Shown here one piece after another: positions 18,904 to 35,496 of a DNA stretch of 64,000 nucleotides. Made by a program: the position numbers and the translations under genes. Each line of letters begins with the position of its first letter. The stretch's first letter is position 1. The stretch comes from Chryseobacterium sp. W4I1. GTDB lineage: Bacteria > Bacteroidota > Bacteroidia > Flavobacteriales > Weeksellaceae. The notes under the pieces were generated by a model, which did not search any database, was not told the origin of the DNA, and saw only the letters and a list, made by a program, of their open reading frames with translations. The stretch is taken from the NCBI RefSeq assembly GCF_030816115.1, contig NZ_JAUSXQ010000001.1:992001-1056000 (forward strand), read 5' to 3'.

Positions 18904-18988
18904 GGAGAGATGGCAGAGTGGTCGATTGCGATAGTCTTGAAAACTATTGACTGTAACAGGTCCGGGGGTTCGAATCCCTCTCTCTCCG
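18904..18988 (+). tRNA. tRNA-Ser (anticodon UGA)
   Basis: An 85-nt cloverleaf: acceptor arms GGAGAGA and TCTCTCC, D-arm with TGGCAGAGTGGT, anticodon stem ATAGT/ACTAT with loop CTTGAAA (anticodon TGA at 18938-18940), a long variable arm (class II) and the T-loop GTTCGAATCCC. No CCA is encoded. The 3' end faces an integrase relic, which is typical of tRNA genes used as integration sites. Confidence 0.96.
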
Positions 18989-19012
18989 CTGGTTGAGAAA
19001 CTAAAATAAGCT

Positions 19013-20030: not shown

Positions 20031-20570
20031 ATGGTTTGCAACCGTTGTATAATGGTGGTTCAAAATGAATTGGATAAGCTTGGTTTGTCAGCCATAAGCA
20101 TAAAGCTTGGCGAGATCATTTTTGAAAAAGCACTGACTACAGAAAAGAAGCGGGATTTAGCAGAAGCCTTATCAATCTTGGGTTTTGGAGTAATAGATGA
20201 TAAAAAAAGCAGGATCATTGAAAAGATAAAAAATACCATCATCGAGTTGGTACATCATGATGATAATGACGCTAAAAGCAACCTATCGGATATTTTAAGT
20301 GAGAAACTTCACCAGGATTACAATTATTTGTCCAACCTTTTCTCTGAAGTGGAAGGCACAACGATTGAAAAATATTTTATTGCCCAGAAAATTGAAAGAG
20401 TAAAAGAACTATTGGTTTATGATGAACTTTCACTGAGCGAAATTGCTTTTCAGCTCAATTATTCCAGTGTGGCTTATCTCAGCAATCAATTCAAAAAAAC
20501 TATCGGATTGACACCGAGTCATTTCAAACAAATAAAGGAGGAGAAACGCAAACCATTAGACCAGGTTTAG
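20031..20570 (+). CDS. AraC family regulator with N-terminal CxxC metal-binding-like segment
   Basis: A 179-residue protein from the ATG at 20031. The start MVCNRCIMVV has a CxxC motif in the position seen in the paralogue at 26660 (KGMVCNRC), resembling the HMA fold's metal site. The C-terminal 80 residues are an AraC helix-turn-helix pair (LSEIAFQLNYSSVAYLSNQF, KKTIGLTPSHFKQI). The natural start is probably the ATG at 20006: it reads MTTLF and would continue in frame to IKNMVCNRC if the six-T run at 20015-20020 were one base shorter. It may therefore be frameshifted at its 5' end, or start internally. The copA gene follows 88 bp later; a metal-responsive activator of copA is inferred. Confidence 0.8.
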   Translation: MVCNRCIMVVQNELDKLGLSAISIKLGEIIFEKALTTEKKRDLAEALSILGFGVIDDKKSRIIEKIKNTIIELVHHDDNDAKSNLSDILSEKLHQDYNYLSNLFSEVEGTTIEKYFIAQKIERVKELLVYDELSLSEIAFQLNYSSVAYLSNQFKKTIGLTPSHFKQIKEEKRKPLDQV

Positions 20571-20633
20571 TAAATCTTACAAATCAATTCCATAATTCCA
20601 CAATAACTATTCTCAGTATTACAGCCAATTTTG
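20569..20633 (+). promoter_or_regulatory. Shared metal-regulon box and promoter of copA
   Basis: The 18-bp box AGTAAATCTTACAAATCA (20569-20586) overlaps the preceding stop codon. After 39 bases comes CAATTTTG (20626-20633), a one-mismatch -7 element; the copA ATG is at 20659. Near-identical boxes at the same distance precede three other operons (26147, 27388, 35185). Confidence 0.75.
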
Positions 20634-20658
20634 TATTGCAAATAAAGCAATAGAAATT

Positions 20659-23076
20659 ATGGCTACAAATAACAATAGAGAAACGATTTACATTCCTTTA
20701 GAAGATGTAGAAAGCGAACATTGTTCATTAATCGTTGAAAAAGGATTGGCAAAGGTTGATGGTGTTGAAACCCAGAAAGTGGAAATCAACAACCACAGGG
20801 CAGCCATTACCGTTAAAGATGCAGAAACTGTTGGCAAAGCCGTTGCAGCTATTAAAGACTTAGGCTATGGTGTACCAACCGTAAAAAATTCCTTCCCGGT
20901 TTTGGGTATGACTTGTGCTTCTTGTGCGGGTAGTGCAGAAAGTATCGTAAAGTATGAGTCAGGTGTGATTGAGGCTTCTGTCAACTACGCAACAGGAAAT
21001 CTGACCGTTGAGTACCTTCCCAATATGACGGACGCTACCAAACTGCAAAAAGCCGTTCAGAGTGTTGGTTATGACCTGCTCATTGTTGAAGAAGCAAAGC
21101 AACAGCAATCTCTGGAGACCATCCATGCAGAAAAATTCAAAAAGCTAAAAAACAAAACTATTTGGGCCGTTATATTATCGTTACCCGTGGTAACCATCGG
21201 GATGTTTTTTATGGATATGCCTTATGGAAACGAAATCATGTGGGCATTTTCCACTCCTGTGGTACTTTGGCTAGGTAAAGACTTTTTTATCAATGCGTGG
21301 AAACAGGCCAGACACCGCTCTGCCAACATGGATACTTTGGTTGCCTTGAGTACAGGAATTGCCTATGTATTCAGTGTATTTAATATGTTTTTTATGGATT
21401 TCTGGCACCAAAGAGGATTGCACGCGCACGTCTATTTTGAAGCAGCTGCAGTGGTCATCGCCTTTATCCTTTTAGGTAAATTATTGGAAGAAAAAGCCAA
21501 AGGAAACACCTCTACTGCCATTAAAAAACTGATGGGCCTGCAACCAAAAACCGTGATGGTAATAGCGCCCGATGGAACAGAAAAACAAACTGCTATTGAA
21601 GAGGTAAATGTAGATGATATAATCCTGGTAAAGCCCGGCGAAAAAATTGCGGTCGATGGAATGGTTACTTCCGGTAATTCGTATGTAGACGAAAGTATGC
21701 TGAGTGGCGAACCCGTTCCGGTATTGAAACAAGAAAATGAAAAAGTATTTGCGGGAACCATTAATCAAAAAGGAAGTTTCCAATTTAAAGCAGTGAAAGT
21801 AGGGAAGGAAACCATGCTGGCTCAAATCATAAAAATGGTGCAGGATGCACAAGGCAGTAAAGCTCCCGTTCAAAAATTGGTTGATAAAATTGCAGGGATT
21901 TTCGTTCCGGTGGTAATTGGTATTGCCATTCTTACGTTTGTTTTGTGGTTTATTTTAGGCGGTGATAACGGTGTAGTACAGGGATTGTTGGCCGCCGTTA
22001 CGGTATTAGTTATTGCTTGTCCTTGTGCTTTAGGACTGGCTACGCCAACGGCTATAATGGTCGGTGTGGGTAAAGGTGCCGAAAATGGTATTTTAATTAA
22101 AGATGCCGAAAGCCTTGAATTGGCTAAGAAAGTGAATGCAATTGTGTTGGATAAAACCGGAACAATAACACAAGGAAGACCTGAGGTAACAAGTATCCAA
22201 TGGCTGAACAATGATGATACAACCAAGACTATTTTGCTGAGTATTGAAAAACAATCAGAGCATCCGTTAGCGGAAGCCGTGGTGAAACATTTGGAAGGCG
22301 CTGCTACCGCACCCTTATCCAACTTCGACAGCATTACAGGGAAAGGTGCAAAAGCCAATCATAATAACGAAACCTATTTTGTAGGAAATAAAAAACTCCT
22401 GGCAGAAAACAACATTGTGATTGCCGAACAATTGCAAAACCAAGCCGATGAATGGGGCAAACAGTCCAAAACGGTCATTTGGTTTGCAAACAGCAAAGAG
22501 GCACTTTCCGTTATCGCCATATCCGATAAAATCAAAGAAACATCAGTTCAGGCAATTGCAGCAATGCAGGAAATGGGTATCGACTTGTATATGCTAACAG
22601 GCGACAATGAAGCTACTGCCAAAGCGATTGCTGAGCAAACAGGCATCCTGCATTACAAAGCCGAAGTATTGCCACAACACAAAGCAGATTTTGTAAAAGA
22701 ATTGCAAAGCAAAGGAAAAGTAGTAGCTATGGTAGGCGACGGAATTAACGACAGTACTGCCCTGGCAACGGCCGATGTAAGTATTGCCATGGGAAAAGGC
22801 AGCGACATCGCCATGGATGTAGCCAAAATGACCATCATTTCATCAGACCTTACCAAAATACCGCAGGCAATACGTTTATCAAAACAAACAGTGGCCACCA
22901 TTAAGCAAAATCTCTTTTGGGCGTTTATTTACAACCTGATTGGCATTCCCCTGGCTGCCGGAATATTGTATCCTATTAACGGTTTCTTGTTAAACCCAAT
23001 GATAGCCGGAGCGGCAATGGCTTTGAGTAGCGTAAGCGTAGTGAGTAATAGTTTAAGATTGAAATGGAAGAAATAA
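20659..23076 (+). CDS. copA: Copper-translocating P-type ATPase (CopA-like)
   Basis: An 805-residue P1B-type ATPase. A first HMA-like domain (about 8-75) has lost its CxxC; the second has Cys86/Cys89 in GMTCASCA. Membrane helices begin near 165. The metal path is Cys454-Pro455-Cys456 in IACPCALG, the phosphorylated residue is Asp498 in DKTGT, the SEHPL motif follows, and GDGIND (Asp694) closes the ATP-binding site. The CPC motif and MALSSVSVVSNSLRLK at the end are those of Cu(I)-exporting pumps. It exports Cu+ (or Ag+) across the inner membrane. It lies behind the AraC gene and its shared box. Confidence 0.95.
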   Translation: MATNNNRETIYIPLEDVESEHCSLIVEKGLAKVDGVETQKVEINNHRAAITVKDAETVGKAVAAIKDLGYGVPTVKNSFPVLGMTCASCAGSAESIVKYESGVIEASVNYATGNLTVEYLPNMTDATKLQKAVQSVGYDLLIVEEAKQQQSLETIHAEKFKKLKNKTIWAVILSLPVVTIGMFFMDMPYGNEIMWAFSTPVVLWLGKDFFINAWKQARHRSANMDTLVALSTGIAYVFSVFNMFFMDFWHQRGLHAHVYFEAAAVVIAFILLGKLLEEKAKGNTSTAIKKLMGLQPKTVMVIAPDGTEKQTAIEEVNVDDIILVKPGEKIAVDGMVTSGNSYVDESMLSGEPVPVLKQENEKVFAGTINQKGSFQFKAVKVGKETMLAQIIKMVQDAQGSKAPVQKLVDKIAGIFVPVVIGIAILTFVLWFILGGDNGVVQGLLAAVTVLVIACPCALGLATPTAIMVGVGKGAENGILIKDAESLELAKKVNAIVLDKTGTITQGRPEVTSIQWLNNDDTTKTILLSIEKQSEHPLAEAVVKHLEGAATAPLSNFDSITGKGAKANHNNETYFVGNKKLLAENNIVIAEQLQNQADEWGKQSKTVIWFANSKEALSVIAISDKIKETSVQAIAAMQEMGIDLYMLTGDNEATAKAIAEQTGILHYKAEVLPQHKADFVKELQSKGKVVAMVGDGINDSTALATADVSIAMGKGSDIAMDVAKMTIISSDLTKIPQAIRLSKQTVATIKQNLFWAFIYNLIGIPLAAGILYPINGFLLNPMIAGAAMALSSVSVVSNSLRLKWKK

Positions 23077-23119
23077 AATTGGAAGTGGTGGGAGTAGAAG
23101 TATAAATATTCAGTTTTGT

Positions 23120-23159
23120 GCAAAAGTTCAATCCCGAAGCTTCGGGATTGAACTTTTGC
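23120..23159. repeat. 40-bp perfect palindrome downstream of copA
   Basis: Bases 23120-23139 and 23140-23159 are exact reverse complements, centred on AAGCTT and with the arm beginning GCAAAAGTTCAATCCC. No T run follows, so it is not a textbook terminator, although it lies 43 bp after the copA stop and could still end transcription or serve as a recombination or processing site. Confidence 0.8.
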
Positions 23160-23252
23160 GGTTTCGTCCCGCTATTGCAAAGTGCTTGTGGTTGGCTTTA
23201 TTTCGTTTGTGTGTCCCGTCCTAAAATAGGTTGACATAAAATCGATTTATTT

Positions 23253-23642
23253 ATGGAAGACGAAGAATTATTTAGAAAAAAGCGCAGTCAAAAAGATTAT
23301 ACATTATGCTTTAAATTGAGCGTTGTTTCTCAAGTAGAAAAAGGCGAACTTACTTATAAACAAGCTCAAAAACACTATGGAATTCAGAGAAGAAGTACGG
23401 TTTTGGTCTGGTTGAGAAGATATGGTAACTTAGATTGGATAAAACCAAGTATCCATACCATGTCAAGATCCAAAGAAACCCCGGCCCAGAAAATTAAACG
23501 TCTGGAGAAAGAACTTTCCGATGAAAAGCTGAAAAATAAAGTACTCAATACAATGATTGAGATTTCAGATGGGCAATATGGCACTCAGATCAGAAAAAAG
23601 TATTTATCCCAACAATCCTCAGACTCCAAAAAGAGGGATTAA
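23253..23642 (+). CDS. IS3-family transposase OrfA
   Basis: A 129-residue DNA-binding subunit: helix-turn-helix region KLSVVSQVEKGELTYKQAQK followed by HYGIQRRSTVLVWLRRYG, then a leucine-zipper-like coiled coil (KIKRLEKELSDEKLKNKVLN). The frame overlaps orfB through a -1 shift; the CCAAAAAG run at 23626-23633 is a suitable slippery site for an OrfAB fusion. Confidence 0.92.
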   Translation: MEDEELFRKKRSQKDYTLCFKLSVVSQVEKGELTYKQAQKHYGIQRRSTVLVWLRRYGNLDWIKPSIHTMSRSKETPAQKIKRLEKELSDEKLKNKVLNTMIEISDGQYGTQIRKKYLSQQSSDSKKRD

Positions 23643-23662
23643 GCCTCTCCAAAATATGTAGA

Positions 23663-24480
23663 TTGTTTGGGATAAGCCGCCAAAATATTTATCAGACTCA
23701 AAAGCGGTATATCAAGCGGGAAGATGAACTTTTGAGAATCAAGGAAATGGTTAAAGCAATACGAATGGAGCTTCCCAGGCTGGGAACCCGAAAGCTTTAC
23801 TATTTGCTGAAAGAATGTTTTGATAAAGAAGATATTAAAATAGGCAGAGATGCTTTATTTCAATATTTAAAAAGAGAAAATTTATTAATTTATCCTAAAA
23901 AGAAATATATAAAGACCACTTTTTCAAAACATTGGCTCAGAAAGCATCCTAATTTATTAAAAAACATTAAAGCAGAACGGCCAGAACAAGTTTTTGTAAG
24001 CGATATCACTTATCTGAAAACAAGGGAATCGGTATGCTATTTATCTTTAGTGACGGATGCTTACAGCAGAAAGATTATGGGGTTCTCGGTGAGCAAAAAT
24101 ATGAATTCTGAAAACGTTGCAAAAGCATTGAAAATGGCAGTGAAGAACAGAATTACCCATAATTCTCTTATTCATCATTCGGATAGAGGATTGCAATATT
24201 GTTCGGGATATTATCAAAAGGTACTTAATCAATATCAAATTCAACCTTCCATGACGGATGGATATGATTGTTATCAAAATGCATTGGCAGAAAGAATTAA
24301 TGGAATATTGAAGCAGGAATTTCTATTTAATAAAGCTAAAATAAAGATGATCTTAATGAATTGATAAAAGAAAGTATTTATCTTTATAACAATAAAAGAC
24401 CTCACTTAAGCCTAAAGATGCAAACACCGGAGCAAGTGCATAAAAAATCCGAAGAAAAATATTCCTCCGGATTTAGTTAA
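23663..24480 (+). pseudogene. IS3-family transposase OrfB, frameshifted near its C terminus
   Basis: The rve-type catalytic core is complete: first Asp in VFVSDITYL, second Asp in HHSDRGLQY and Glu in NALAERINGILK. The open frame then ends at 24364 after KAKIKMILMN, while the expected continuation (DLNELIKESIYLYNNKRPHL to the stop at 24480) is in the -1 frame, so an indel near 24335 has cut about 40 residues off. The real N terminus is upstream of 23663, reached by -1 frameshifting from orfA (GLSKICRLFGISRQ is readable). Confidence 0.85.
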
Positions 24481-24532
24481 ATATTGTTTAATTATTGTCA
24501 ATCTATTTTAGGACGACTCAGTGAATGTTCTC

Positions 24533-24988
24533 CTAATTGTCAAGTCGGTTGTCATTTCCAAATAATATTGCTGTTCCGTCTTCATTCTTCGCCAAGTTAA
24601 AAAGTTCATTTTGAAAGTTATCAATTGCACTTGGTTCGACAATTATTTCAACTTTTAATTTGTTCTTTTCTTCAGGTCTATAAATAGTTGATACGTTACT
24701 TTCAATATTTATTTCTACTCCAATATGTCCGCTATTATCGATAGGATAATATTTCATAGAAAAGTAGGCATAACTGTCTTTTTCTCCTGCTTCGTAAAAT
24801 AGTATTTTGTCGCCTTTGGGATAACCAACTAATTCGTTTGCAAAGTCAGAAATGCATTCAAACTGGTCATAAACTTCTGTTTGTCCAGTAAATAGATTAT
24901 TTGATACAACAACTTTCAATTCAAACATATCATCGTCTTTCCAAATAGATTTTAATTCAAGAAAAGATTTTCGATTATTTGAAGCCAT
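24533..24988 (-). CDS. Hypothetical protein
   Basis: A 151-residue acidic soluble protein. It opens with SFLELKSIWKDDDMFELKVV and has an internal FANELVGYPKGDKILFYEAG and SYAYFSMKYYPID; the pattern is like small immunity-type or orphan proteins of Bacteroidetes islands, but no family was recognised. Its stop codon is only 12 bp from the IS3 right end, so the gene is not cut. The upstream spacer contains GAGTTGGTGGCAAGCG (reverse strand), a sequence type often seen next to orphan genes in this phylum. Confidence 0.55.
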   Translation of the reverse strand: MASNNRKSFLELKSIWKDDDMFELKVVVSNNLFTGQTEVYDQFECISDFANELVGYPKGDKILFYEAGEKDSYAYFSMKYYPIDNSGHIGVEINIESNVSTIYRPEEKNKLKVEIIVEPSAIDNFQNELFNLAKNEDGTAILFGNDNRLDN

Positions 24989-25154
24989 ATATTACTTGTT
25001 TTCTATTGTTCCACTGTCAGTTTTACGCTTGCCACCAACTCAAAATACACGCAATGCGTATTTTAAATAGTTTAAACAATAGTATGAATTTTATATTGTT
25101 GCGCAACGAGTAATCACCATCCCTTTGTCTGCAGAATTTCATTACGCTACAAAT

Positions 25155-25724
25155 CTAACGTTTTGATTTCAGCCTACTCAAGGTCTCTTGCGAAATATTG
25201 AGATAAGTCGCTACGATTTTGTTTGGCAAACGTTGAACGATTTTTGGGTTGATGTCCAACAACTGTTTATATCGTTCCGTTGCATCGAGTGTCAAAAACG
25301 ACATAAGCCTGTTGGTATTATTTACATAGGCGTTTTCTAAATAATGCCGATAAAATTTCTCCCACGAAGGAACGATTTCTAAGAGGTGATAGAAGTCTTT
25401 GTGTGATATATAAAGTAACGACGTTGGTTCTAACGCCTGAATGAATTCTAATGAAGGTTCCTTTGAGATAAAACTACACAGTGCCGTGGCAAAGTTATTT
25501 TCAAATGCCAGATATCGCGTCGCCTCTTGTCCGTCTTCGGTTATAAAAAATATACGTAAACAACCATTGCCAACGAAAAAAGTCCGTTGGCTGGTTTGTC
25601 CGTGAATAACCAAAAGTTCATTTTTTTCAACTTCCAACGGCTTGAAACAGGAAAGAATTTTGTCCATTTCCTCATCTGTCACCGTTATAATTCCTTTGAT
25701 ATAATTAGTAAGTTGCTCTTGCAT
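25155..25724 (-). CDS. Crp/Fnr family transcriptional regulator
   Basis: A 189-residue regulator: effector barrel (about 25-120; LLVIHGQTSQRTFFVGNGCLRI, then EATRYLAFENNFATALCSF) and C-terminal helix-turn-helix (LPNKIVATYLNISQETLSRL). It is the second gene of a two-gene minus-strand unit with the DUF2798 gene (46-bp gap). An FNR-like palindrome lies upstream of that unit at 26062-26075, suggesting autoregulation. No cysteine cluster for an iron-sulfur site is visible. Confidence 0.88.
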   Translation of the reverse strand: MQEQLTNYIKGIITVTDEEMDKILSCFKPLEVEKNELLVIHGQTSQRTFFVGNGCLRIFFITEDGQEATRYLAFENNFATALCSFISKEPSLEFIQALEPTSLLYISHKDFYHLLEIVPSWEKFYRHYLENAYVNNTNRLMSFLTLDATERYKQLLDINPKIVQRLPNKIVATYLNISQETLSRLKSKR

Positions 25725-25770
25725 TGTGGAAATTGGTAAACTTCAAATTTACAAAAATCAAATTCTTAGG

Positions 25771-25995
25771 TTATGATTTAGAGGTTGATTTTTCTGCCAA
25801 TTTTCTTGCATTTGGAATAATGATAAATGCCGAAATGTAGGCGACAGGCAACATAACGCTCCAGGCTTTCAGGAATTTTAAAAACCAATCTTCTCCGAAA
25901 CCATAATTACGCATCAGTCCTACAAACGCCATAATTAGTGTCATTGGGATTACAACAAACAATGTGTTGATGTACTTGAAATACTTTTTGTCCAT
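25771..25995 (-). CDS. DUF2798 domain membrane protein
   Basis: A 74-residue protein with two hydrophobic helices (about 8-28 and 45-62) and the family-type sequence FVVIPMTLIMAFVGLMRNYG with WSVMLPVAYISAFIIIPNAR. DUF2798 proteins are small inner-membrane proteins of unknown function. It is first in a unit with the Crp/Fnr gene at 25155. A likely -7 element (GAATTTTG on the minus strand, 26039-26032) and an FNR-type box precede it. Confidence 0.8.
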   Translation of the reverse strand: MDKKYFKYINTLFVVIPMTLIMAFVGLMRNYGFGEDWFLKFLKAWSVMLPVAYISAFIIIPNARKLAEKSTSKS

Positions 25996-26061
25996 TTTTT
26001 AAATTTTTGTTTAACATTTAAATTGATGGTGCAAAATTCTCCAAACAAAAAAACATAAAGA

Positions 26062-26075
26062 TTGATGTACGTCAA
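26062..26075 (-). promoter_or_regulatory. FNR/Crp-type palindromic operator
   Basis: TTGATGTACGTCAA matches the FNR consensus TTGATnnnnATCAA with one difference and is a near-perfect palindrome. On the minus strand its centre is about 32 bp upstream of the -7 element GAATTTTG (26039-26032), placing it near -41, the classic position for activation. The downstream unit encodes DUF2798 and a Crp/Fnr regulator. Confidence 0.6.
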
Positions 26076-26146
26076 AAAACGGATGGTGTCAAAAAATAAA
26101 TCCCTTCTAAATTCCTTACCCAACCTCAAATACCATCACGCCAATC

Positions 26147-26211
26147 AGTAAATATCACAAATCAAATAAGTAATAGCGTAAAAAATAAGCGCAGAACAAT
26201 GCGGAAATTTG
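26147..26211 (+). promoter_or_regulatory. Shared metal-regulon box and promoter of the HMA-like gene at 26233
   Basis: The box AGTAAATATCACAAATCA (26147-26164) differs from the copA box at two positions. Thirty-nine bases later comes GAAATTTG (26204-26211) as a -7-like element; the ATG is at 26233. The distance is the same as at copA and at the efflux operon. Confidence 0.72.
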
Positions 26212-26232
26212 TAGTACAAAAATTTATTTAAA

Positions 26233-26481
26233 ATGAAAAATGTAGAATTGAGCATTCCAAATATGCAGAGTGCACATTGCCAGACAAGAGTAAATGGCGC
26301 AATCGCAGCTATTGAAGGTTTAAAAATTGAAAAATTAGAGGCTGGAAAATTATCCGTTGCTGTTGAAAGCGACGAAGTAAGAAAAGAGCTGGTAGAAACC
26401 ATTGAAAAAGCGGGTTACAAAGTAGACGGTGACGATAGCGAAAAAGATTCAAGCCCTTCAGGCGAATGTTGTACTAACTAA
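26233..26481 (+). CDS. Small HMA-like protein with altered metal motif
   Basis: An 82-residue ferredoxin-like (heavy-metal-associated) protein: MKNVELSIPNMQSAHCQTRV replaces the usual GMTCxxC, so only one Cys (with an adjacent His) is left at the metal loop. The beta-alpha-beta-beta-alpha-beta order and IEKAGYKV ending are typical. The extra C-terminal tail ends in GECCTN, a Cys-Cys pair that could supply ligands. It is a monocistronic gene with the shared box upstream and a strong terminator downstream. A metal chaperone or buffer role is inferred. Confidence 0.8.
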   Translation: MKNVELSIPNMQSAHCQTRVNGAIAAIEGLKIEKLEAGKLSVAVESDEVRKELVETIEKAGYKVDGDDSEKDSSPSGECCTN

Positions 26482-26492
26482 AACTTTAATTT

Positions 26493-26537
26493 AATTTCAG
26501 GGATGCCGTATCAACAATACATTGCATCCCTGAAATT
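26493..26537 (+). terminator. Terminator after the HMA-like gene
   Basis: AATTTCAGGGATGC pairs perfectly with GCATCCCTGAAATT across a 17-base loop, followed by TTTT. It closes the unit of the gene at 26233. Confidence 0.8.
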
Positions 26538-26659
26538 TTAAATACAGAATGATATTGCTGAAGAATTTAATCTCAATCTTTAAAGTAGAAAATGATTCAA
26601 GAAAAGTTAGGAACTAACGAATCCGAAATAAGTGCATAATAAAATATTTTTTTTAACCT

Positions 26660-27229
26660 ATGAAACTATTAATCAAAGGAATGGTATGCAACAGGTGTAT
26701 TTATTTTCTGTCTGAAGAATTTCCCAAGCTCGGTTTGGAAATTTCCGAAATACGCTTAGGGGTTGTAATTCTAAAAGAAACCGATACAACCATCGTTGAT
26801 GATCAAGTGATCAGAACCATGCTTCAAAAGAACGGATTCGATTTGTTATACAATAAGGACCAAAAGATTATTGAATTGATTAAAACTGCCGTTGAAAAAG
26901 GGATTGATGAACAATTGGATACTGGCAAGCCTGTTAAATTTTCGGCATTTATCAGCAACGAATTGTATAAAGAATATGACTCGCTGAGTGCCTTATTTTC
27001 ATCTTTGGAAGGACTAACGCTCGAAAAATTTATTATCTCAAAGAAGATAGAAAAAGTAATAGAGCTTTTAGTCTACACGGATCAGTCGCTGTCTGATATT
27101 GCTTATGCCTTAGGTTACGGAAGTCCGGCTTACCTATCCAATCAGTTAAAAAAGTACACCGGCTTTACCTCTTCCCACTATAAAAAGATAAGACGTGATA
27201 AGATGGCTATTACAACAAAAATCATATAA
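26660..27229 (+). CDS. AraC family regulator with N-terminal metal-binding-like domain
   Basis: A 189-residue paralogue of the regulator at 20031. It starts MKLLIKGMVCNRCIYFLSEE, giving a complete first strand and a CxxC loop as in HMA domains, followed by about 60 residues with an HMA-like secondary structure order and a C-terminal AraC domain (LSDIAYALGYGSPAYLSNQL then KKYTGFTSSHYKKI). The architecture suggests that metal binding is read directly by the DNA-binding protein. No shared box lies before it, so it is probably not activated by itself. It precedes the efflux operon, and a terminator separates them. Confidence 0.85.
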   Translation: MKLLIKGMVCNRCIYFLSEEFPKLGLEISEIRLGVVILKETDTTIVDDQVIRTMLQKNGFDLLYNKDQKIIELIKTAVEKGIDEQLDTGKPVKFSAFISNELYKEYDSLSALFSSLEGLTLEKFIISKKIEKVIELLVYTDQSLSDIAYALGYGSPAYLSNQLKKYTGFTSSHYKKIRRDKMAITTKII

Positions 27230-27301
27230 AAAACGTTCATAACGCCTAAAATTCTTTGCAGCCCGGTTTTCTGAAACTACCGGAATACAAATCAGCTTGC
27301 C

Positions 27302-27331
27302 AATCCCTGTTCGTCAAAAGGAACAGGGATT
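27302..27331 (+). terminator. Terminator between the AraC gene and the efflux operon
   Basis: AATCCCTGTTC (27302-27312) pairs with GAACAGGGATT (27321-27331) around an 8-base loop, followed by CTTTT. Confidence 0.85.
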
Positions 27332-27387
27332 CTTTTATAAGTAATTTAATAATATGCATATACTGCTTAAAAGCCAAAAATAGCAAG

Positions 27388-27452
27388 CGTAAATATCACA
27401 ACTCTTACCCGTAATAGTATCAAAAATACGGCAACCTCCACCAATACCTTTG
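27388..27452 (+). promoter_or_regulatory. Shared metal-regulon box and promoter of the efflux operon
   Basis: CGTAAATATCACAACTCT (27388-27405) matches the box AGTAAATATCACAAATCA at 15 of 18 positions. Exactly 39 bases later is TACCTTTG (27445-27452), a perfect TANNTTTG -7 element. The first gene starts at 27496 or 27526. Confidence 0.68.
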
Positions 27453-27525
27453 TCCTTTAAAATTAATCATTTGTTACATCACTAAGCATAGCAACATGTT
27501 ATACAAAATCATTAAACACAAGACC

Positions 27526-28596
27526 ATGTTATACAAATCTACAAGACTAAGGTTAGGCATTTTAATACCGTTAATGGGCATCTTATTGATTGCCTGTGAG
27601 AACAAGTCGGAAAAAACGTCGAAAAAAACGGCAACCACTAACGCAGATGCCAGCAAATTACCGGTAGATATTATCATTGCTCAGGAAAAATTGCTCAATC
27701 ATGAAGAAGCTATTGTGGGTACGATGATGTCTAATCGAGAAGTATCCATCGTCAGCGAAATTCCTCAAAAGATAACTAAAGTAGCCTTTAAAGATGGCGG
27801 CTACGTTACCCAAGGCGCTGTATTGTACACATTGAATGACACCGATATTAAATCCCGTTTAAAACAGGTTGGTGCTGAACTGGAATTGGCAAAACTCAAC
27901 AAAGAGCGGATGAGTAATCTCTTGAAAACCGAAACCGTAAGACAGCAGGAATATGATGAAGCATTTACGCGTTTCCGTTCCTTGGTTGCACAGCAGGATT
28001 TGCTTCGTGTCGAACTTGCCAAAACGGTAATCCGGGCGCCATTTTCAGGGAAAATCGGAATTTCAAAAGTACATCTTGGTGCTTATGTTACCCCTGGTGC
28101 AGTACTGGTGATGTTGCAAGACCAAAGCAGTATCAAAATCAATTTCTCAGTTCCGGAAAAATACCTGCCTTTAATAAAAATGGGAGATAAAGTACGGTTT
28201 ACTTCCGAGTTATCTGGCGAGGAGTATATAGCAACCATCAACGCCACCGAACCGGGACTTGACGCTCAAGGCAGGAGCTTGCAGGTGCAGGCATTGGCAA
28301 ATAATACGGGTGGCCAATTTAGGCCAGGACTTTCTGCAAAAGTCTATTTCAGTGCTACCGATAAAGGTGCAAAAGGGATATTGGTACCAACCGAAGCGCT
28401 GGCTCCTGGCGCAAAAGGTTACACTGTTTTCATCATTAAAAATGGCGTAGCAAAACCTGCGGAAGTAACCATTAGCAAAAGGACAGAAACAGATGCAGTC
28501 ATCACTTCTGGCATCGCTACCGGCGATAGCATTATTGTTTCAAACATGCTGCGCTTAGGAGATGGAATGCCTGTAAAAGCCGTTGTGTCCAAATAA
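27526..28596 (+). CDS. RND efflux periplasmic adaptor (membrane fusion protein), lipoprotein
   Basis: Start chosen at 27526 because it leads directly into a lipoprotein signal peptide (ILIPLMGILLIAC); an in-frame ATG at 27496 repeats the same first codons and would add ten residues. The 356-residue product has the HlyD layout: lipoyl half-motifs around VTQGAVLYTLNDTDIKSRL and VIRAPFSGKIG, a coiled-coil hairpin between them, and beta-barrel and membrane-proximal domains (GQFRPGLSAKVYFSATD, DSIIVSNMLRLGDGMPV). It bridges the RND pump and outer-membrane channel encoded next. Confidence 0.92.
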   Translation: MLYKSTRLRLGILIPLMGILLIACENKSEKTSKKTATTNADASKLPVDIIIAQEKLLNHEEAIVGTMMSNREVSIVSEIPQKITKVAFKDGGYVTQGAVLYTLNDTDIKSRLKQVGAELELAKLNKERMSNLLKTETVRQQEYDEAFTRFRSLVAQQDLLRVELAKTVIRAPFSGKIGISKVHLGAYVTPGAVLVMLQDQSSIKINFSVPEKYLPLIKMGDKVRFTSELSGEEYIATINATEPGLDAQGRSLQVQALANNTGGQFRPGLSAKVYFSATDKGAKGILVPTEALAPGAKGYTVFIIKNGVAKPAEVTISKRTETDAVITSGIATGDSIIVSNMLRLGDGMPVKAVVSK

Positions 28597-28617
28597 TTCA
28601 TTTCAAATCTTAGCATT

Positions 28618-31600
28618 ATGAGTATATCATCTTTAAGTATAAAAAAACCGGTTTTAGCCGGTGTATTTTCACTCCTGCTTATTATTTTGGGAATTGTGGG
28701 TTGGAAACAGTTAGGCGTTCGGGAATTTCCGCTAACAGAACCGCCCGTTATTTCGGTCATTACGTTCTATCCCGGTGCAAGCCCTGATGTGATTGCATCG
28801 AAGCTTACCCGCCCAATGGAAGAATCTATTGCCGAGGCCAACGGAATACGTACTATCTCTTCTGAATCCAGAGAACAGGTAAGTATTATTTCAGTAGAAT
28901 TTAACCGTGAAGTGGATTTGGAAGATGCATTGAACGATGTAAGGGACAAAGTCGCCAAATCCCGTAAACAACTTCCTGGCGATGTAGACCCGCCAATTGT
29001 GCAAAAGGCATCTTCGCCAGACAATCTGGTGGCATTCCTCGAGGTGGAAAGTGACACCAAAGACATCAAAGAAGTAAGTCATCTCGCATCCACCGTCATC
29101 AAAGACAAAATGCAATCTATCCCGGGAATAAGCAATGTAGCCATTGTAGGCGAACACAAATACGCCATGCGCCTTCGCTTTGACCCGGCAAAACTTGCCG
29201 CTTATCAATTGACTCCTGCAGACATTCGCAAAGCCTTGACAAGAGAGAATATTGACTTGCCTGCTGGTCGTATAGAAGGAAGCAACAGTGAGCTGAGCAT
29301 CCGTACGATGGGCCGCCTTACTTCGGTAAATGATTTTGAAGAAATGCTTATCAAGCAAGTGGGCAGTACGGTCATTCGCCTCAAAGATATTGGCTCTGCC
29401 GAATTGGGCGAAGAAAACGAACGCACCGCAATTATTAACGAAACTGGTGGGTTAAACCGTATTGGAATTGGTGTTGCTATTCAAATTCAAAGGGGTGCGA
29501 ATGCCATTGAAGTGGTAGATGAATTTTACAAACGGTTAGAGCAGCTGCGCAAAGAAGTTCCTTCTGAATACCGTTTAATTGTCGGCTTCGACTATACCAG
29601 TTCTGTACGCGAATCTATCAAAGAGGTAGAAGAAACCCTGTTCATTGCTTTCGGACTGGTGGTATTGATTATTTTTCTATTTCTGAGGGATTGGCGCTCA
29701 ACCATCATCCCGGTATTGGCGATTCCGGTATCCATCATTTCTGCATTTTTCATTATGTATGTGGCAGGTTTTTCCATCAATATTTTAACGCTGTTGGGAT
29801 TGGTACTTGCGATTGGATTGGTGGTAGATGATGCCATTGTTGTACTGGAAAATATTTATAAAAAGATAGAAGAAGGCATGACGCCCATTCAGGCTGCGTT
29901 TAAAGGTTCCAAAGAAATCTATTTTGCGGTTATTTCCACTACCATTACGTTGGCAGCCGTTTTTCTTCCCATTGTTTTTATGGGCGGAATTAGTGGACAG
30001 CTTTTCAAGGAATTCGCCATCGTAGTATCGGGTTCGGTACTGATTTCGGCTTTGGTGGCTTTGACATTGACACCGATGTTGAGTGCTTATTTTCTAAAGA
30101 AAAAAGTAAGACCGAGTTGGTTTTACCGGGTTACTGAACCGTTTTTCGTGCGTTTAAATAACGGATATGCCCGTTTGCTTACCACATTTATGAAAGCGAG
30201 GTGGTTGGCCTGGGTATTCTTAGTGGGTACTACTGCGCTCATTTATTTTGTAGGCAAGGGACTTCCTTCAGAATTGGCACCTATTGAAGACCGTTCAAAC
30301 ATGAACCTCATCGCTGTTGCCCCGGAAGGTGTTTCTTTCGATTATATGAAAAAGCACATGACCGAAGTTGGTAAATATGTGAACGACTCTACCGATGGTT
30401 TATATCAAACCTATTCGATGGTCGCTATTTCCTTTATTCCTGCTCCGGCACCTGTGAATGTTGCGGTGCAAAGTATCTATCTCAAAGACCCTAAAGAAAG
30501 AAAACACAGCGTTCAGGACCTGTATAACCAATATGGCGCTGCGTCAGGGCAATTCAGAGGATTTCTTCTGTTTCCCTATCTGCCGCCAACTATTGGAAGC
30601 CGATATGGTGGTGGTATGCCGATACAGTTTGTATTGCAATCGCAAAACCTCGACAGTCTGACAGCAGTGCTTCCAAAATTCCTTGCTGCGGCACGCCAAA
30701 GCAAAAAGCTGATGTTTATTGATGCCGATTTAAAGATTAATAAACCAGAAGTAAAAATAAATATCGACCGTCAGAAAGCCGCCTTAATGGGTGTTTCAAT
30801 GGAAGAAGTAGCGCACACTTTGCAACTCTCCTTCTCCGGGCAGCGTTACGGATATTTCTTGCGAAACGACCGTCAATATGAAGTAATTGGGCAATTAGAT
30901 AGAACCTATAGAAATGATAAAAGTGACCTGAGTGCAATCTACGTCCGTTCGGCAACAGGCGAAATGATACCATTAAGCAATCTCATCACCACAGAAGAAG
31001 CCGTAAGTCCTGCCGCTATTTACCGATACGACCAATACACTTCTGCTACCGTATCGGCAGCAATGGCGCCTGGAGTGAGCCTTGCCGAAGGTATACAGGA
31101 AATCGAAAAAATAAAGAAAGAAGTTTTGGGTGAAACGTTCAAAGCATCCTTAGCTGGCCAGTCGAGAGATTATACCGAAAGCCAGGGCAATATCACCTTT
31201 ACGCTTATCCTGGCATTGGTACTTATTTATATGATTTTGGCCGCACAGTTTGGCAATTTACGTGACCCGTTGACCATTATGCTTACCGTACCAATGGCGA
31301 TAACCGGTGCTATTCTCAGCCTCTCGTGGTTTGGTCAGAGTTTAAATGTGTTCAGCCAAATTGGAATAATTACCCTGATAGGATTAATTACCAAAAACGG
31401 TATTCTTATCGTTGAATTTGCCAACCACCTTAAAAACACCGGACTTTCAAAACGGGAAGCAGCCATACAGGCAGCCGAGCAACGTTTCCGTCCTATTTTG
31501 ATGACCTCTTTGGCGATGATTTTCGGAGCCTTACCGATTGCATTGACGGTTAACAGCCGTCAGTCGTTAGGGATTGTGATTGTAGGCGGATTAGCCTTCT

Positions 31601-31722
31601 CCGGAATATTAACCTTGTTCATTATCCCGGCAGTTTATTCTTATTTATCAAGCAAAAAAGCGGAAAAAGTAATTGTAGAGGATGATACCAAGGAAGAAAG
31701 CAGACCAGCCGAAGTAGTATGA
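28618..31722 (+). CDS. RND family inner-membrane efflux pump (HAE1-like)
   Basis: A 1034-residue pump with two repeats of one plus five membrane helices and large periplasmic loops. It starts SSLSIKKPVLAGVFSLLLII; the loop motif YPGASPDVIASKLTRPMEES, the charged helix-4 pair in GLVVDDAIVVLENI and the second-half GLITKNGILIVEFANHL are those of multidrug (AcrB/MexB type) pumps rather than CzcA metal pumps. Proton motive force drives export of amphiphilic compounds. It is second in the operon MFP-RND-OMF-MFS under a promoter with the metal box, so a link between metals and drug efflux is inferred. Confidence 0.94.
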   Translation: MSISSLSIKKPVLAGVFSLLLIILGIVGWKQLGVREFPLTEPPVISVITFYPGASPDVIASKLTRPMEESIAEANGIRTISSESREQVSIISVEFNREVDLEDALNDVRDKVAKSRKQLPGDVDPPIVQKASSPDNLVAFLEVESDTKDIKEVSHLASTVIKDKMQSIPGISNVAIVGEHKYAMRLRFDPAKLAAYQLTPADIRKALTRENIDLPAGRIEGSNSELSIRTMGRLTSVNDFEEMLIKQVGSTVIRLKDIGSAELGEENERTAIINETGGLNRIGIGVAIQIQRGANAIEVVDEFYKRLEQLRKEVPSEYRLIVGFDYTSSVRESIKEVEETLFIAFGLVVLIIFLFLRDWRSTIIPVLAIPVSIISAFFIMYVAGFSINILTLLGLVLAIGLVVDDAIVVLENIYKKIEEGMTPIQAAFKGSKEIYFAVISTTITLAAVFLPIVFMGGISGQLFKEFAIVVSGSVLISALVALTLTPMLSAYFLKKKVRPSWFYRVTEPFFVRLNNGYARLLTTFMKARWLAWVFLVGTTALIYFVGKGLPSELAPIEDRSNMNLIAVAPEGVSFDYMKKHMTEVGKYVNDSTDGLYQTYSMVAISFIPAPAPVNVAVQSIYLKDPKERKHSVQDLYNQYGAASGQFRGFLLFPYLPPTIGSRYGGGMPIQFVLQSQNLDSLTAVLPKFLAAARQSKKLMFIDADLKINKPEVKINIDRQKAALMGVSMEEVAHTLQLSFSGQRYGYFLRNDRQYEVIGQLDRTYRNDKSDLSAIYVRSATGEMIPLSNLITTEEAVSPAAIYRYDQYTSATVSAAMAPGVSLAEGIQEIEKIKKEVLGETFKASLAGQSRDYTESQGNITFTLILALVLIYMILAAQFGNLRDPLTIMLTVPMAITGAILSLSWFGQSLNVFSQIGIITLIGLITKNGILIVEFANHLKNTGLSKREAAIQAAEQRFRPILMTSLAMIFGALPIALTVNSRQSLGIVIVGGLAFSGILTLFIIPAVYSYLSSKKAEKVIVEDDTKEESRPAEVV

Positions 31723-31746
31723 TTTTAAATTTTAATTAAGAAAAAA

Positions 31747-33096
31747 ATGAAAAAGAATATCTCATATATAGTTACAATGCTTCTATTGATAAGCAGCGTA
31801 AATATAGTGTACGCACAGAAAAAAACGCTGTCTCTTACCGATGCTTTGGAAATGGCAAAACAAGGAAACAAAGCATTGCAGGTGCAGGTTTTGGAAGAAA
31901 TTAATGCCAAAGAAAAAACCCGTGAAACCAAAGGTGCCTTACTGCCTACTATTTCGGCAAACCTTGGCTATTCCTATTATTTCGACAGGCAGGTTATATT
32001 TATGCCGGGTTCGTTTGCGGGCACCAATAAGCCGGTGCAGGACATCGCCGTTGGCGGAAAAAATATTTACAACGGGTTTGTATCACTCTATCAACCCATT
32101 TTTTCACCGGCTGCAAATCAGTTAACAAAGGCCTCAAAAATCACTGAAAAAATAGAAAATCAAAAGACCGCCGACTTGAAAAGTCAGGTTGCCCTTCAGG
32201 TTTCAACCCGCTATCTGGATATATTGATGATGAACAGCCAATTGGGTTTACTCGACCAAAGTCTGCAACGCAATATCAAGGCACTGCAAGATTCGCGGGC
32301 ATTATTAGCGCAGGGAAAAGGCTTAAAAGCGGATACATTAAGGAGTTTTATTGCGGTAGAAAATTTAAAATCTTCTATTTCATATTTGAAGAACAATGTT
32401 GAGGTTTCGGGTATTGAATTAAAAAGATTGATTGGGTTGCAAGATATATCTGAATTAGAATTGACCGATAATCTTGAGCTGGGTCTTGAAGCCAACAAAA
32501 GCGAGTTTTATCAAGTTGATGAGGCATTCAAAATTGCAGAAGTCAATCGAAAAGATTTGAATATTCAAAAATTATCGATTGACCTTCAGCAAAAAAAATT
32601 AAAAGCTACGCAAGCCATGTTGTTACCACAGCTTTCTCTGGTTGGGCAATATCAGGTACAGGCACAGGCAGATGATATGAAGTTTGGGGAATATTCTTTA
32701 CCAAGAACTTCCTTTCTAGGCTTGCAATTGACCGTACCGATTTTTAACGGCAACCGTACCAAATCTCAAATCAGCCAGGCAAAAATTAAAGCAGAACAAG
32801 AAGACATACGGTTGAACGATTTAAAAGACAAGGTTAAAACAGAACTGGCCACTATTATAAGCAAATGGAAAGAAGCCAATACACAAATGGACATTCAGGA
32901 AACCACCGTGCAATCGGCAGAACTGAACCACCACATGATGGAAGACCGTTTCAAAAATGGCTTAGGTTCAAGGCTTGAATTGACGGATGCAGAATTGGCG
33001 TTGACACAAGCCAAGATTAACTATCTCAATGCTGTATATAACCTGCGAATGCTTCACGTAGAACTGCAAAATGCGCTTGGTCTTTTAAACTTGTAA
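31747..33096 (+). CDS. TolC family outer-membrane efflux channel
   Basis: A 449-residue protein with a signal peptide (ISYIVTMLLLISSVNIVYAQ) and two OEP repeats: KKTLSLTDALEMAKQGNKAL begins the first, and NHHMMEDRFKNGLGSRLELTD near the end carries the conserved second-repeat helix. Long amphipathic helices and VPIFNGNRTKSQISQAK are typical. It forms the outer-membrane exit duct of the adjacent RND pump. It is the third gene of the operon with a 24-bp gap. Confidence 0.92.
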   Translation: MKKNISYIVTMLLLISSVNIVYAQKKTLSLTDALEMAKQGNKALQVQVLEEINAKEKTRETKGALLPTISANLGYSYYFDRQVIFMPGSFAGTNKPVQDIAVGGKNIYNGFVSLYQPIFSPAANQLTKASKITEKIENQKTADLKSQVALQVSTRYLDILMMNSQLGLLDQSLQRNIKALQDSRALLAQGKGLKADTLRSFIAVENLKSSISYLKNNVEVSGIELKRLIGLQDISELELTDNLELGLEANKSEFYQVDEAFKIAEVNRKDLNIQKLSIDLQQKKLKATQAMLLPQLSLVGQYQVQAQADDMKFGEYSLPRTSFLGLQLTVPIFNGNRTKSQISQAKIKAEQEDIRLNDLKDKVKTELATIISKWKEANTQMDIQETTVQSAELNHHMMEDRFKNGLGSRLELTDAELALTQAKINYLNAVYNLRMLHVELQNALGLLNL

Positions 33097-33129
33097 TTAT
33101 TCGTCAATAATTTAAAAAAATAAAAAAAA

Positions 33130-34545
33130 ATGAAACAACCAATAGACAAACCTGCCCCATACAGCAAACGCTGGTCGGCACTTTTCTTACTTTGTACTGC
33201 ACAGTTTATAGTAATTATGGACACCTCTATTATCGGGGTAGCTTTACCAGCAATAAAAGCAGATCTCGGGTATTCCCAAAGCGGCTTACAATGGATTTTT
33301 AATGCTTATGTTATTGCATTTGGCGGCTTTTTACTACTCGGCGGACGTTTGTCAGATTTGTTTGGCGCCCGCAAGGTTTTTATGTGGGGTTTTGTCATTC
33401 TTTCTGCCGCATCACTTCTGGCAGGTGTCGCTTGGTCAGAAGCAGCACTTAATGCCGGAAGAGCTTTGCAAGGCCTGGGTTCTGCATTGATTGCTCCGGC
33501 AGCACTTACTTTAGTCTTATCCAAATTTACCGACCCAAAAGAAATCAATAAAGCACTAGGCTTTTGGGGCGCTTCGGCAGCAGCGGGTGGTTCTGCAGGC
33601 GTTTTCCTTGGCGGGGCTATTACCGAATGGCTTTCCTGGCATTGGGTATTCCTCATTAATATTCCCATAGGACTTGCAGTGCTGTTTTATAGCAAAAAGC
33701 TGTTGTTTAAAGGCAGTACCCAAAAAGGAAAAGTGGATGTAGCAGGCGCAATTTTGGCAACAGCCGCGTTGGTGTTAGCAGTATATGGCATTGTATCAGC
33801 TGAAGGCGCCGGGTGGAAATCGCTTCAGACCATCGGATTGTTAGTCCTGTCCTTAGTATTGTTCATTATCTTCTTTGTTATCCAAAAGCATAAAAATGAA
33901 CCCTTGGTTCCGCTAAGTATTTTCAAAGTTCCCAATCTTTCATCAGGTAATTTGGTAATGGCTTTACTGGCAGCGGCCTGGATACCTTTATGGTTTTTCC
34001 TCAACCTGTACCTGCAGCAAACGCTGAATTATTCTGCCTTCAATAGTGGATTGGCATTGTTGCCTATGACGATAGCGATTATGTTTTTGATGGTAGGTGT
34101 TACGGGCAAACTGGTAGCCAAATTCGGTTTCAAAACAAATCTTATAGCCGGGCTAATTACACTTGCCGCTTCACTTTTTCTGTTTAGCACCATTCCGGCT
34201 GATGGAACGTTCCTGGTCAATGTATTGCCCGCATCTTTGTTGGGAGCGCTGGGTATGTCGTTGGCTTATATTCCGGGTACGATTGCCTCGATGTCGGGTG
34301 CTAGACCCGAAGAAACAGGACTGGCTTCAGGATTGGTCAATACGAGTTATCAAGTGGGTTCGGCTTTGGGTCTGGCAATTATTGTTGCCATTTCTGCTGC
34401 AAAAACCAATGCGGTTAGAACAAAAGGAGCCGCTGATATGGTAGCGCTGAATGCAGGTTTTCAAACCGCCTTTTTCTCGGCAGCAGTTATCTGTGTAATT
34501 GCCGCAGTTATTGCTGCTTTTTCTGTAAAAACGCTCAAAAATTAA
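33130..34545 (+). CDS. MFS transporter, DHA2 (EmrB/QacA) type
   Basis: A 471-residue transporter with about 14 predicted helices. The N-terminal LFLLCTAQFIVIMDTSIIGV (motif D1) and GGRLSDLFGARKVF (motif A), then LALLPMTIAIMFLMVGVTGK, are those of proton-driven 14-helix drug exporters. It starts 33 bp after the TolC gene and ends the tripartite operon, giving the unit both an RND and an MFS pump that might share the outer-membrane channel. Its substrate is unknown. Confidence 0.9.
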   Translation: MKQPIDKPAPYSKRWSALFLLCTAQFIVIMDTSIIGVALPAIKADLGYSQSGLQWIFNAYVIAFGGFLLLGGRLSDLFGARKVFMWGFVILSAASLLAGVAWSEAALNAGRALQGLGSALIAPAALTLVLSKFTDPKEINKALGFWGASAAAGGSAGVFLGGAITEWLSWHWVFLINIPIGLAVLFYSKKLLFKGSTQKGKVDVAGAILATAALVLAVYGIVSAEGAGWKSLQTIGLLVLSLVLFIIFFVIQKHKNEPLVPLSIFKVPNLSSGNLVMALLAAAWIPLWFFLNLYLQQTLNYSAFNSGLALLPMTIAIMFLMVGVTGKLVAKFGFKTNLIAGLITLAASLFLFSTIPADGTFLVNVLPASLLGALGMSLAYIPGTIASMSGARPEETGLASGLVNTSYQVGSALGLAIIVAISAAKTNAVRTKGAADMVALNAGFQTAFFSAAVICVIAAVIAAFSVKTLKN

Positions 34546-34570
34546 CCCGTTGCATTTATCAATTTAGATT

Positions 34571-35137
34571 ATGGAAGAAATTATTTCCCAAAATGAAACA
34601 GGAATGCTAATGATACCGGATATATCCGGATTTACAGATTTTGTTATTAATACCAATATGGTTATTGGGAAATACATAACTGAAAGTCTTCTGAAATCAA
34701 TAATTGACAGCAACAACCTTTCATTTAAAGTTTCAGAGATTGAGGGAGATGCGGTATTGTTTTATAAATACCGCAAAATTCCCTCCTTTGACGATACAAT
34801 AGCCCAGATTGTGGTAATGTACACGAATTTCAAAAAAGAGTTAGTCAGACTGTCATTGGAGCTTGCTATGGAAATCTCTCTATCCTTGAAAATTATCGTG
34901 CACTATGGAGCTTTTACCCAATATAAAATTGGAAAGTTTGAAAAACTTTATGGAGCAACAGTTGTAGAAGCGCATCAAATGCTCAAAAACCATATAGCGA
35001 AGTTTCCACCGTATGCTTTGTTTTCCGAAGCCTTTTTAAAAGCTAATTTCGAACACCCTGCCCAATCTACTATTGAATATGATAACTGCGACAAGTGTAT
35101 TTATCTGGCTAAAATTGGATATATACATTACTTGTAA
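34571..35137 (+). CDS. DUF2652 domain-containing protein
   Basis: A 188-residue soluble protein. MLMIPDISGFTDFVINTNMV and EIEGDAVLFYKYRKIPS match DUF2652, a family distantly related to class III nucleotide cyclases (the ISGFT and GDA elements correspond to the metal-binding region). No cyclase activity is shown. The C terminus has NCDKCIY with a CxxC. It lies 26 bp after the MFS gene, probably as the last gene of the efflux operon. Confidence 0.82.
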   Translation: MEEIISQNETGMLMIPDISGFTDFVINTNMVIGKYITESLLKSIIDSNNLSFKVSEIEGDAVLFYKYRKIPSFDDTIAQIVVMYTNFKKELVRLSLELAMEISLSLKIIVHYGAFTQYKIGKFEKLYGATVVEAHQMLKNHIAKFPPYALFSEAFLKANFEHPAQSTIEYDNCDKCIYLAKIGYIHYL

Positions 35138-35184
35138 TTTGAGACGACAGCTTCAATATCGGTAACAATACAAAATCTGCAATC

Positions 35185-35248
35185 AGTAAATCTTACAAAT
35201 CATACCCCAAAAAACGCAAAAGAAATCGTGTTATTTGGCGCAACTTTG
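35185..35248 (+). promoter_or_regulatory. Shared metal-regulon box and promoter of the HMA-lipoprotein unit
   Basis: AGTAAATCTTACAAATCA (35185-35202) is identical to the copA box. After 38 bases comes CAACTTTG (35241-35248), a one-mismatch -7 element; the ATG is at 35278. Confidence 0.74.
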
Positions 35249-35277: not shown

Positions 35278-35496
35278 ATGGAAAAAACGAATTTGCAATT
35301 CAAGACAAATATCAATTGCAGCAGCTGTGTGGCAAAAGTAACCCCTTTTTTAAATGATGCCGAAGGTATCGGGCAATGGGAAGTGGACACAGCCAATAGA
35401 GAAAAAATCCTCACCTTAAAATCTGAAGGAATTACTGAACAAAAAGTAATAGAAGCAGTTCAAAAAGCTGGTTTCAAAATTGAACCGATAAAATAA
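35278..35496 (+). CDS. Heavy-metal-associated (HMA) domain protein
   Basis: A 72-residue single HMA domain with the metal loop INCSSCVAKV (CxxC at about 13-16), strand TLKSEGI and the closing AVQKAGFKI. It resembles CopZ-type copper chaperones, but the sequence is divergent. It is first in a two-gene unit with the metal-binding lipoprotein (9-bp gap) and has the shared box. Passing copper to CopA is a reasonable inference, without proof. Confidence 0.87.
   Translation: MEKTNLQFKTNINCSSCVAKVTPFLNDAEGIGQWEVDTANREKILTLKSEGITEQKVIEAVQKAGFKIEPIK

Follow-up and report, generated by a model that had tools for sequence, protein, structure and literature searches.

A stretch of 64,000 nucleotides from Chryseobacterium sp. 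W4I1 (contig NZ_JAUSXQ010000001.1, positions 992,001 to 1,056,000; the window, numbered from its first base) contains an island of putative copper-handling and efflux genes with four similarly built promoters. Its proteins were classified by Pfam and NCBIfam profiles, and the genes and promoter elements listed here are all on the + strand. AraC1 (20031..20570; PF12833/PF00165), a regulator with an HMA-like N-terminus (MVCNRC) and an AraC-type helix-turn-helix (HTH) domain, is encoded directly upstream of the copA promoter. CopA (20659..23076) is a copper-type P-type ATPase with HMA domains (PF00122; PF00403 in two stretches; TIGR01511 above cutoff). Further on are genes for a small CopZ-like HMA protein (26233..26481; PF00403), in which the first Cys of CxxC is replaced by Ser (SAHC), and for AraC2 (26660..27229; PF12833/PF00165 and a structure model), a second regulator of the AraC1 type (MVCNRC), upstream of the promoter of an RND/OMF/MFS operon. 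This operon encodes an RND periplasmic adaptor (27496..28596; TIGR01730 above cutoff), an RND permease (28618..31722), an outer-membrane efflux protein (31747..33096; PF02321) and a DHA2-type MFS permease (33130..34545; TIGR00711 above cutoff), followed by a DUF2652 protein (34571..35137; PF10851). Last come a small HMA protein with CSSC (35278..35496; PF00403) and a lipoprotein-like protein with a heavy-metal-binding HMBD (35506..36456; PF19335).

The original prediction, made from the letters of the window, had placed an 18-bp box upstream of each of these four promoters, and all four copies were re-located with the letters claimed, on the + strand (20569, 26147, 27388 and 35185), as was the gap from box to TAnnTTTG-like -7 element (39 bases for three copies and 38 for that at 35185). 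The box is present but is not the whole site. At every copy a second half-site follows in a 21-bp register, so that the operator has the direct-repeat form AATnnnACAA / AATnnnRYAA and keeps a constant distance to the -7 element. In the copA operator, half-site 1 (20569..20586; pattern match, promoter profile) is followed by half-site 2, AATTCCACAA (20594..20603; promoter profile, pair counts), and the -7-like element CAATTTTG (20626..20633; TTTG at +44 after the 16-bp core). The operator of the CopZ-like gene consists of half-sites at 26147..26164 (pattern match, promoter profile) and 26172..26181 (AATAGCGTAA; double-site genome pattern), with GAAATTTG at 26204..26211. The RND operon has the variant box ACAACTCTTACC (27388..27405; pattern match, class test), then AATAGTATCA (27413..27422; double-site genome pattern) and TACCTTTG (27445..27452). 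Upstream of the HMA/metal lipoprotein genes the box (35185..35202; pattern match) is identical to that at 20569 and is followed by AAAAACGCAA (35210..35219; genus site pattern) and, after a spacer one base shorter, CAACTTTG (35241..35248). Each AraC gene is located upstream of a boxed promoter; the start of the copA box falls within the stop codon of AraC1, and 158 bases separate AraC2 from the RND box.

The 16-bp core of the box, GTAAATNTNACAANTC, has exactly four exact matches in the 4,621,265-base genome, all inside the island and within 14.6 kb. With one mismatch allowed there were 15 matches, versus 11 for the reversed control. A pattern comprising both half-sites and the -7 element (≤ 3 mismatches) found the four island sites and one A-rich match in the genome, and its reversed control found none. 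Within the window, a degenerate consensus of the four sites (≤ 3 mismatches) matched only those four, which is not significant, as shuffled windows gave 2.16 matches on average and 19 of 100 gave at least four; whole-genome and comparative tests were therefore used.

For comparison, 80 named loci, nearly all from Bacteroidota, were fetched by alignment to the AraC proteins (MVCxRC being one of two search motifs) and not by the box; several are near-identical islands, for example L073 and L074. The core (≤ 1 mismatch) was present in 54 of the 80 loci, with 114 occurrences in all; the reversed pattern occurred six times, in five loci. None of the 114 cores lay inside genes matched by the eleven window query proteins. 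When the four window sites were added, TTTG was found at exactly +44 after the core in 105 of 118 matches and at +43 in six. These 111 matches show that in AraC loci the box is not equally common away from promoters. The median distance from core to chosen start codon was 74 bases (111 matches). Of 50 AraC genes with a CopA match within 400 bases downstream, 41 had a core in between.

The genes behind these sites are largely of the kinds seen in the window. Typed by similarity to window proteins, with six of the 118 matches left out and the first gene only considered rather than later operon members, the 112 downstream genes were CopA (50), small HMA (36; 23 + 13), RND adaptor (9), HMBD (1), AraC (2) and unclassified (14). 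Pfam profiles of six unclassified targets revealed a CDF exporter, a DUF326 protein, a cupredoxin, an HMA-MauE protein, a DoxX just below cutoff and one protein without a family. In L059 (5733-6239) and L066 (4393-6374) the same site is found ahead of the cupredoxin, DUF326 protein and CDF exporter, widening the presumed copper regulon.

A profile of 82 nonredundant promoters, limited to matches with TTTG at +44, is conserved in two blocks, +3 to +12 (AATnnnACAA) and +24 to +33 (AATnnnRYAA) (redundancy was cut at 85%, for the profile and class tests only). The second block rules out a single 18-bp site. When AATnnnRYAA pairs were counted on both strands of the 80 loci and the window, an offset of 21 gave 109 pairs in 61 of 81 sources, and TTTG was in the expected place in 99 of them. 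The runner-up, an offset of 12, gave 17 pairs (15 with TTTG in place), eight of which have a 3' member that also belongs to an offset-21 pair, and the half-site read backwards gave at most six pairs at every offset. No conserved -33 TTTG is present in the 82-promoter profile. As far as sequence goes, the geometry is that of an AraC-type direct repeat with its inner half-site at the polymerase-proximal edge.

AraC1 and AraC2 both have the AraC-type double-HTH DNA-binding domain, the only type of domain that the profiles reported in them; no MerR, CsoR or winged-helix CopY fold was found among them. Pfam HMA (PF00403) did not match either protein at E 0.001. In the structure model of AraC2 (pLDDT 88), residues 1-63 are predicted to fit CopZ/Atx1 folds, a β-α-β-β-α-β ferredoxin-like arrangement with MxCxxC whose CxxC is near the first strand-helix turn, and the predicted fold of residues 64-184 matches the DNA-binding domains of MarA/SoxS. 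Five such proteins (HMA-AraC) are encoded in the genome at E 1e-15, among 70 loose first-look candidates, with AraC1 the best (E 1e-91). The upstream start that AraC1 normally has in relatives is not in frame in this genome (20000-20045); the frame opens at the Met of MVCNRC, and the first strand would be missing. The gene may be damaged or use an alternative start, or the assembly may contain an error; relatives carry intact copies. Among 72,556 plasmid records only five matched AraC1, all with < 60% identity.

Site and regulator occur together in genomes. In 116 genomes of the same genus, AraC1 and the full site were both found in 18, the site only in two, AraC1 only in none and neither in 96 (Fisher 3e-19), with an AraC1 cutoff (E 1e-78) chosen after scores had been seen in the phylum survey; five lower-scoring matches, which resemble AraC2 in their scores, also pass this cutoff, all in genomes already having AraC1. 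The site pattern used for the genus is looser in half-site 2 than that used for the phylum (AANNNN instead of AATNNN), and its reversed control gave one match (G045). Of the two site-only genomes, G025 has its match at the core copA site, in the same place as a match to the second operator described below, and the sites of G051 are near a contig start, so that the contig end may have removed the AraC gene. The strict double site had 21 matches in 15 of 395 phylum genomes (control 0), all 15 of which encode HMA-AraC, as do 182 of the 395 (p 6e-6); the 80 loci had served to define the pattern, and the genus and phylum genomes on which it was run possibly include some of the same species. Since 167 of the 182 HMA-AraC genomes are without the strict site, the exact operator belongs to one subfamily.

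Simpler patterns were less informative. The core alone matched in 53 of 197 relatives, with 83 exact matches (including the four of this genome) versus 51 for the reversed control, and was dropped as a marker of the regulon. A box equally common away from such promoters, which would have spoken against the original prediction, was not seen in the AraC loci; in genomes at large the core is only modestly above its control. A strict core with a free gap of 30-60 before TTTG gave 33 matches in 25 of 395 genomes versus 17 reversed, many of them at other gaps and without a second half-site, and was replaced by the double-site pattern.

The box very probably forms the upstream half of an operator built as a direct repeat and read by the HMA-AraC proteins, a family of small regulators in Bacteroidota that would act as Cu(I)-sensing activators. 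Judged by comparison of AraC-fetched loci and genomes, the regulon of copper genes with an AraC-type site, as originally predicted, is real and common to many Bacteroidota genera, and the CxxC-bearing AraC proteins are its likely binders, in keeping with their co-occurrence and predicted N-terminal fold. The earlier interpretation as a whole is partly supported. Site anatomy, conservation and location, co-occurrence with the regulator and the predicted fold are the observed part of the model; from them we infer the metal, DNA binding, activation over repression, the oligomeric state and the division of labour. By analogy with known AraC and HMA behaviour, and from the site anatomy, activation through the 21-bp direct repeat would be triggered by Cu(I). 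Under excess copper, Cu(I) would be held by the two cysteines of the N-terminal HMA-like domain. The loaded protein, most likely as a dimer or as two adjacent monomers, would fill the two same-orientation half-sites two helical turns apart, the inner of which would end at the -33 region, and would bring RNA polymerase to promoters with a -7 element and without a conserved -33 TTTG. The outcome would be expression of copA, HMA chaperones, the metal lipoprotein and the RND/OMF/MFS operon. AraC1 would be the general regulator, and AraC2, just upstream of the RND operon, would probably favour the RND variant of the site.

The site might instead be bound by another regulator (the Crp-like protein, a response regulator or a different AraC), the HMA-AraC genes being mere neighbours. 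Other AraC-like proteins are likely to be encoded among the 70 loose candidates, only five of which pass E 1e-15, and a gene for a cyclic nucleotide monophosphate-binding (Crp-like) regulator is near the 26147 site (25155-25724). Nevertheless, this is quite unlikely given that the site is found in 18/18 AraC1 genomes versus 2/98 others, that an asymmetric direct repeat in a 21-bp register is unlike a Crp-type palindrome, and that an independent AraC-repeat-copA combination exists with different letters. In this second pair (L213 4855-8607; G000:C1 about 1520854-1524606) another HMA-AraC (MVCNRC) is encoded upstream of a second metal ATPase (HMA and four HMBD stretches), and the intergenic region contains a -7 element and the direct repeat AAATTCTATAAC / AAATTTATAAC, whose offset is again 21 bases. 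The operator was found exactly in 35 of the 116 genus genomes (control 0). That the identical boxes at 20569 and 35185 are remnants of a recent duplication or a mobile repeat, as the presence of a transposase in the island might suggest, can practically be dismissed; the flanks of the four sites differ, and the same architecture with fixed spacing in other genera already contradicts it. HMA-AraC could also be a repressor released by copper, as the inner half-site extends to the -33 region and its occupation could block polymerase. This is improbable, as the lack of a conserved -33 TTTG in the 82 promoters and an inner half-site just upstream would fit class II activation of the SoxS/MarA type, and most AraC proteins with such a layout are activators.

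A more serious alternative, although still a doubtful one, is that there are two circuits, with AraC1 controlling copA and HMA genes in response to copper and AraC2 controlling only the RND operon in response to another signal (for example a drug or copper complexed with a ligand); the similarity of the sites would then come from shared ancestry. AraC2 adjoins the RND operon, and the RND site has letters of its own. C at core position 13 was found in 6/7 nonredundant RND sites versus 6/65 elsewhere (p 4e-5) and TT at 16-17 in 5/7 versus 6/65 (p 6e-4), and these comparisons involve just seven RND sites. A further class difference is T at position 8, present in 35/35 copA sites and 9/30 small-HMA sites (nonredundant; p 2e-10). 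In addition, the RND permease is HAE1-like by score (1057 bits to the multidrug subfamily, cutoff 1250; 393 to CusA/CzcA, cutoff 701). A permease behind a copper-type operator is thus nearer to multidrug HAE1 than to CusA/CzcA, under both cutoffs. Against two circuits, AraC2 retains MVCxRC, all sites have the core letters, the 21-bp register and the spacing to the -7 element in common, small-HMA sites are found with and without AraC2, and in alignment AraC2 resembles AraC1 in its HTH segments; those of the second pair diverge more from AraC1 (judged by eye). Within a single copper regulon, the class letters could tune affinity or reflect an AraC2 preference. With its distinct variant of the box, the branch formed by AraC2 and the RND operon may be separate in part, and the HAE1-like score of the pump suggests that copper may be coupled to multidrug efflux.

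Further paralogues occur in the genome stretches fetched. That in L215 has no CxxC, and 21-bp-register repeats are found before its own gene (3892) and after the following gene (5274), which suggests, from the letters, another signal and self-control. For the L214 paralogue (MVSLRC) no repeat was found in the fetched stretch.

A broader proposal, which might equally hold or fail, gives HMA-AraC proteins the leading part in cytosolic Cu(I) sensing in flavobacteria and many further Bacteroidota, in place of CueR/CsoR, with paralogues insulated by half-site letters alone and one branch linked to an HAE1-type pump. The genome of W4I1 has no match to the CsoR family (PF02583) and only a partial CueR match below cutoff (positions 2-67 of 127, E 4e-6). 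Among 128 phylum genomes none exceeded the CueR cutoff (TIGR02044, 147.4), yet 16 matched with > 100 bits. The phylum is not without classical sensors, since the CsoR family is present in 39 of the 128, mostly in one family (f32). Together with other caveats, this slightly lowers the odds of the broader proposal and the confidence in the main reading. PF02583 also takes in sensors of other signals. Only six of the 39 CsoR-family genomes also have HMA-AraC, and the two may replace each other. HMA-AraC is one candidate type of copper sensor in the phylum, not the sole one.

If the proposal is true, a chaperone domain has been turned into a sensor where other bacteria, and CsoR-bearing Bacteroidota, use CueR or CsoR. 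Sensing of excess copper in many Bacteroidota is poorly described, and a regulator family, an exact operator and a list of targets are now defined. Natural pairs of paralogous regulators and operators also provide material for studies of specificity and for copper biosensors. In the open-licence PubMed Central literature, judged by title and start of abstract, no description of an HMA-AraC copper regulator or of the box was found. For its Bacteroidota, the relevant passages of a survey of marine copper sensing give two-component and ECF homologues only (PMC10141476), and those on Mucilaginibacter metal islands name no AraC regulator (PMC6316836).

Like the AraC/XylS activators and MarA/SoxS, HMA-AraC proteins have two HTH motifs and asymmetric direct-repeat half-sites about two turns apart, the inner one near the -35 region; AraC I1-I2 are direct-repeat sites of this family. 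They differ in having a metal-chaperone-fold N-terminus instead of a cupin sugar pocket, a different half-site and the -7/-33 promoter that is the Bacteroidota consensus. CueR, CsoR and CopY, the cytosolic Cu(I) sensors, have the same presumed role, turning on copA and chaperones at high cytosolic copper. Their DNA- and metal-binding folds are unrelated, whereas the sensor domain of HMA-AraC is itself chaperone-like. With CopZ/Atx1/HAH1, GolB, the HMA domains of CopA and NmerA it shares a predicted ferredoxin-like fold with CxxC, but here this is fused to a DNA-binding domain and escapes Pfam HMA at the threshold used. An AraC-type copper response, reportedly involving YbtA, is known from the Yersinia high-pathogenicity island; it likewise ties the AraC family to copper but, from the title of the study (PMC8725597), is siderophore-dependent.

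A tRNA-Ser(tga) gene is located about 1 kb upstream of AraC1 (18904-18989). As for a mobile-island boundary at this gene, the window holds no duplicate of the 3' end of the tRNA; the only shared stretch is a 12-mer from its middle. Genes for a transposase-like pair (HTH_28, then an rve integrase core) are located at 23253-24364, between copA and the remaining island.

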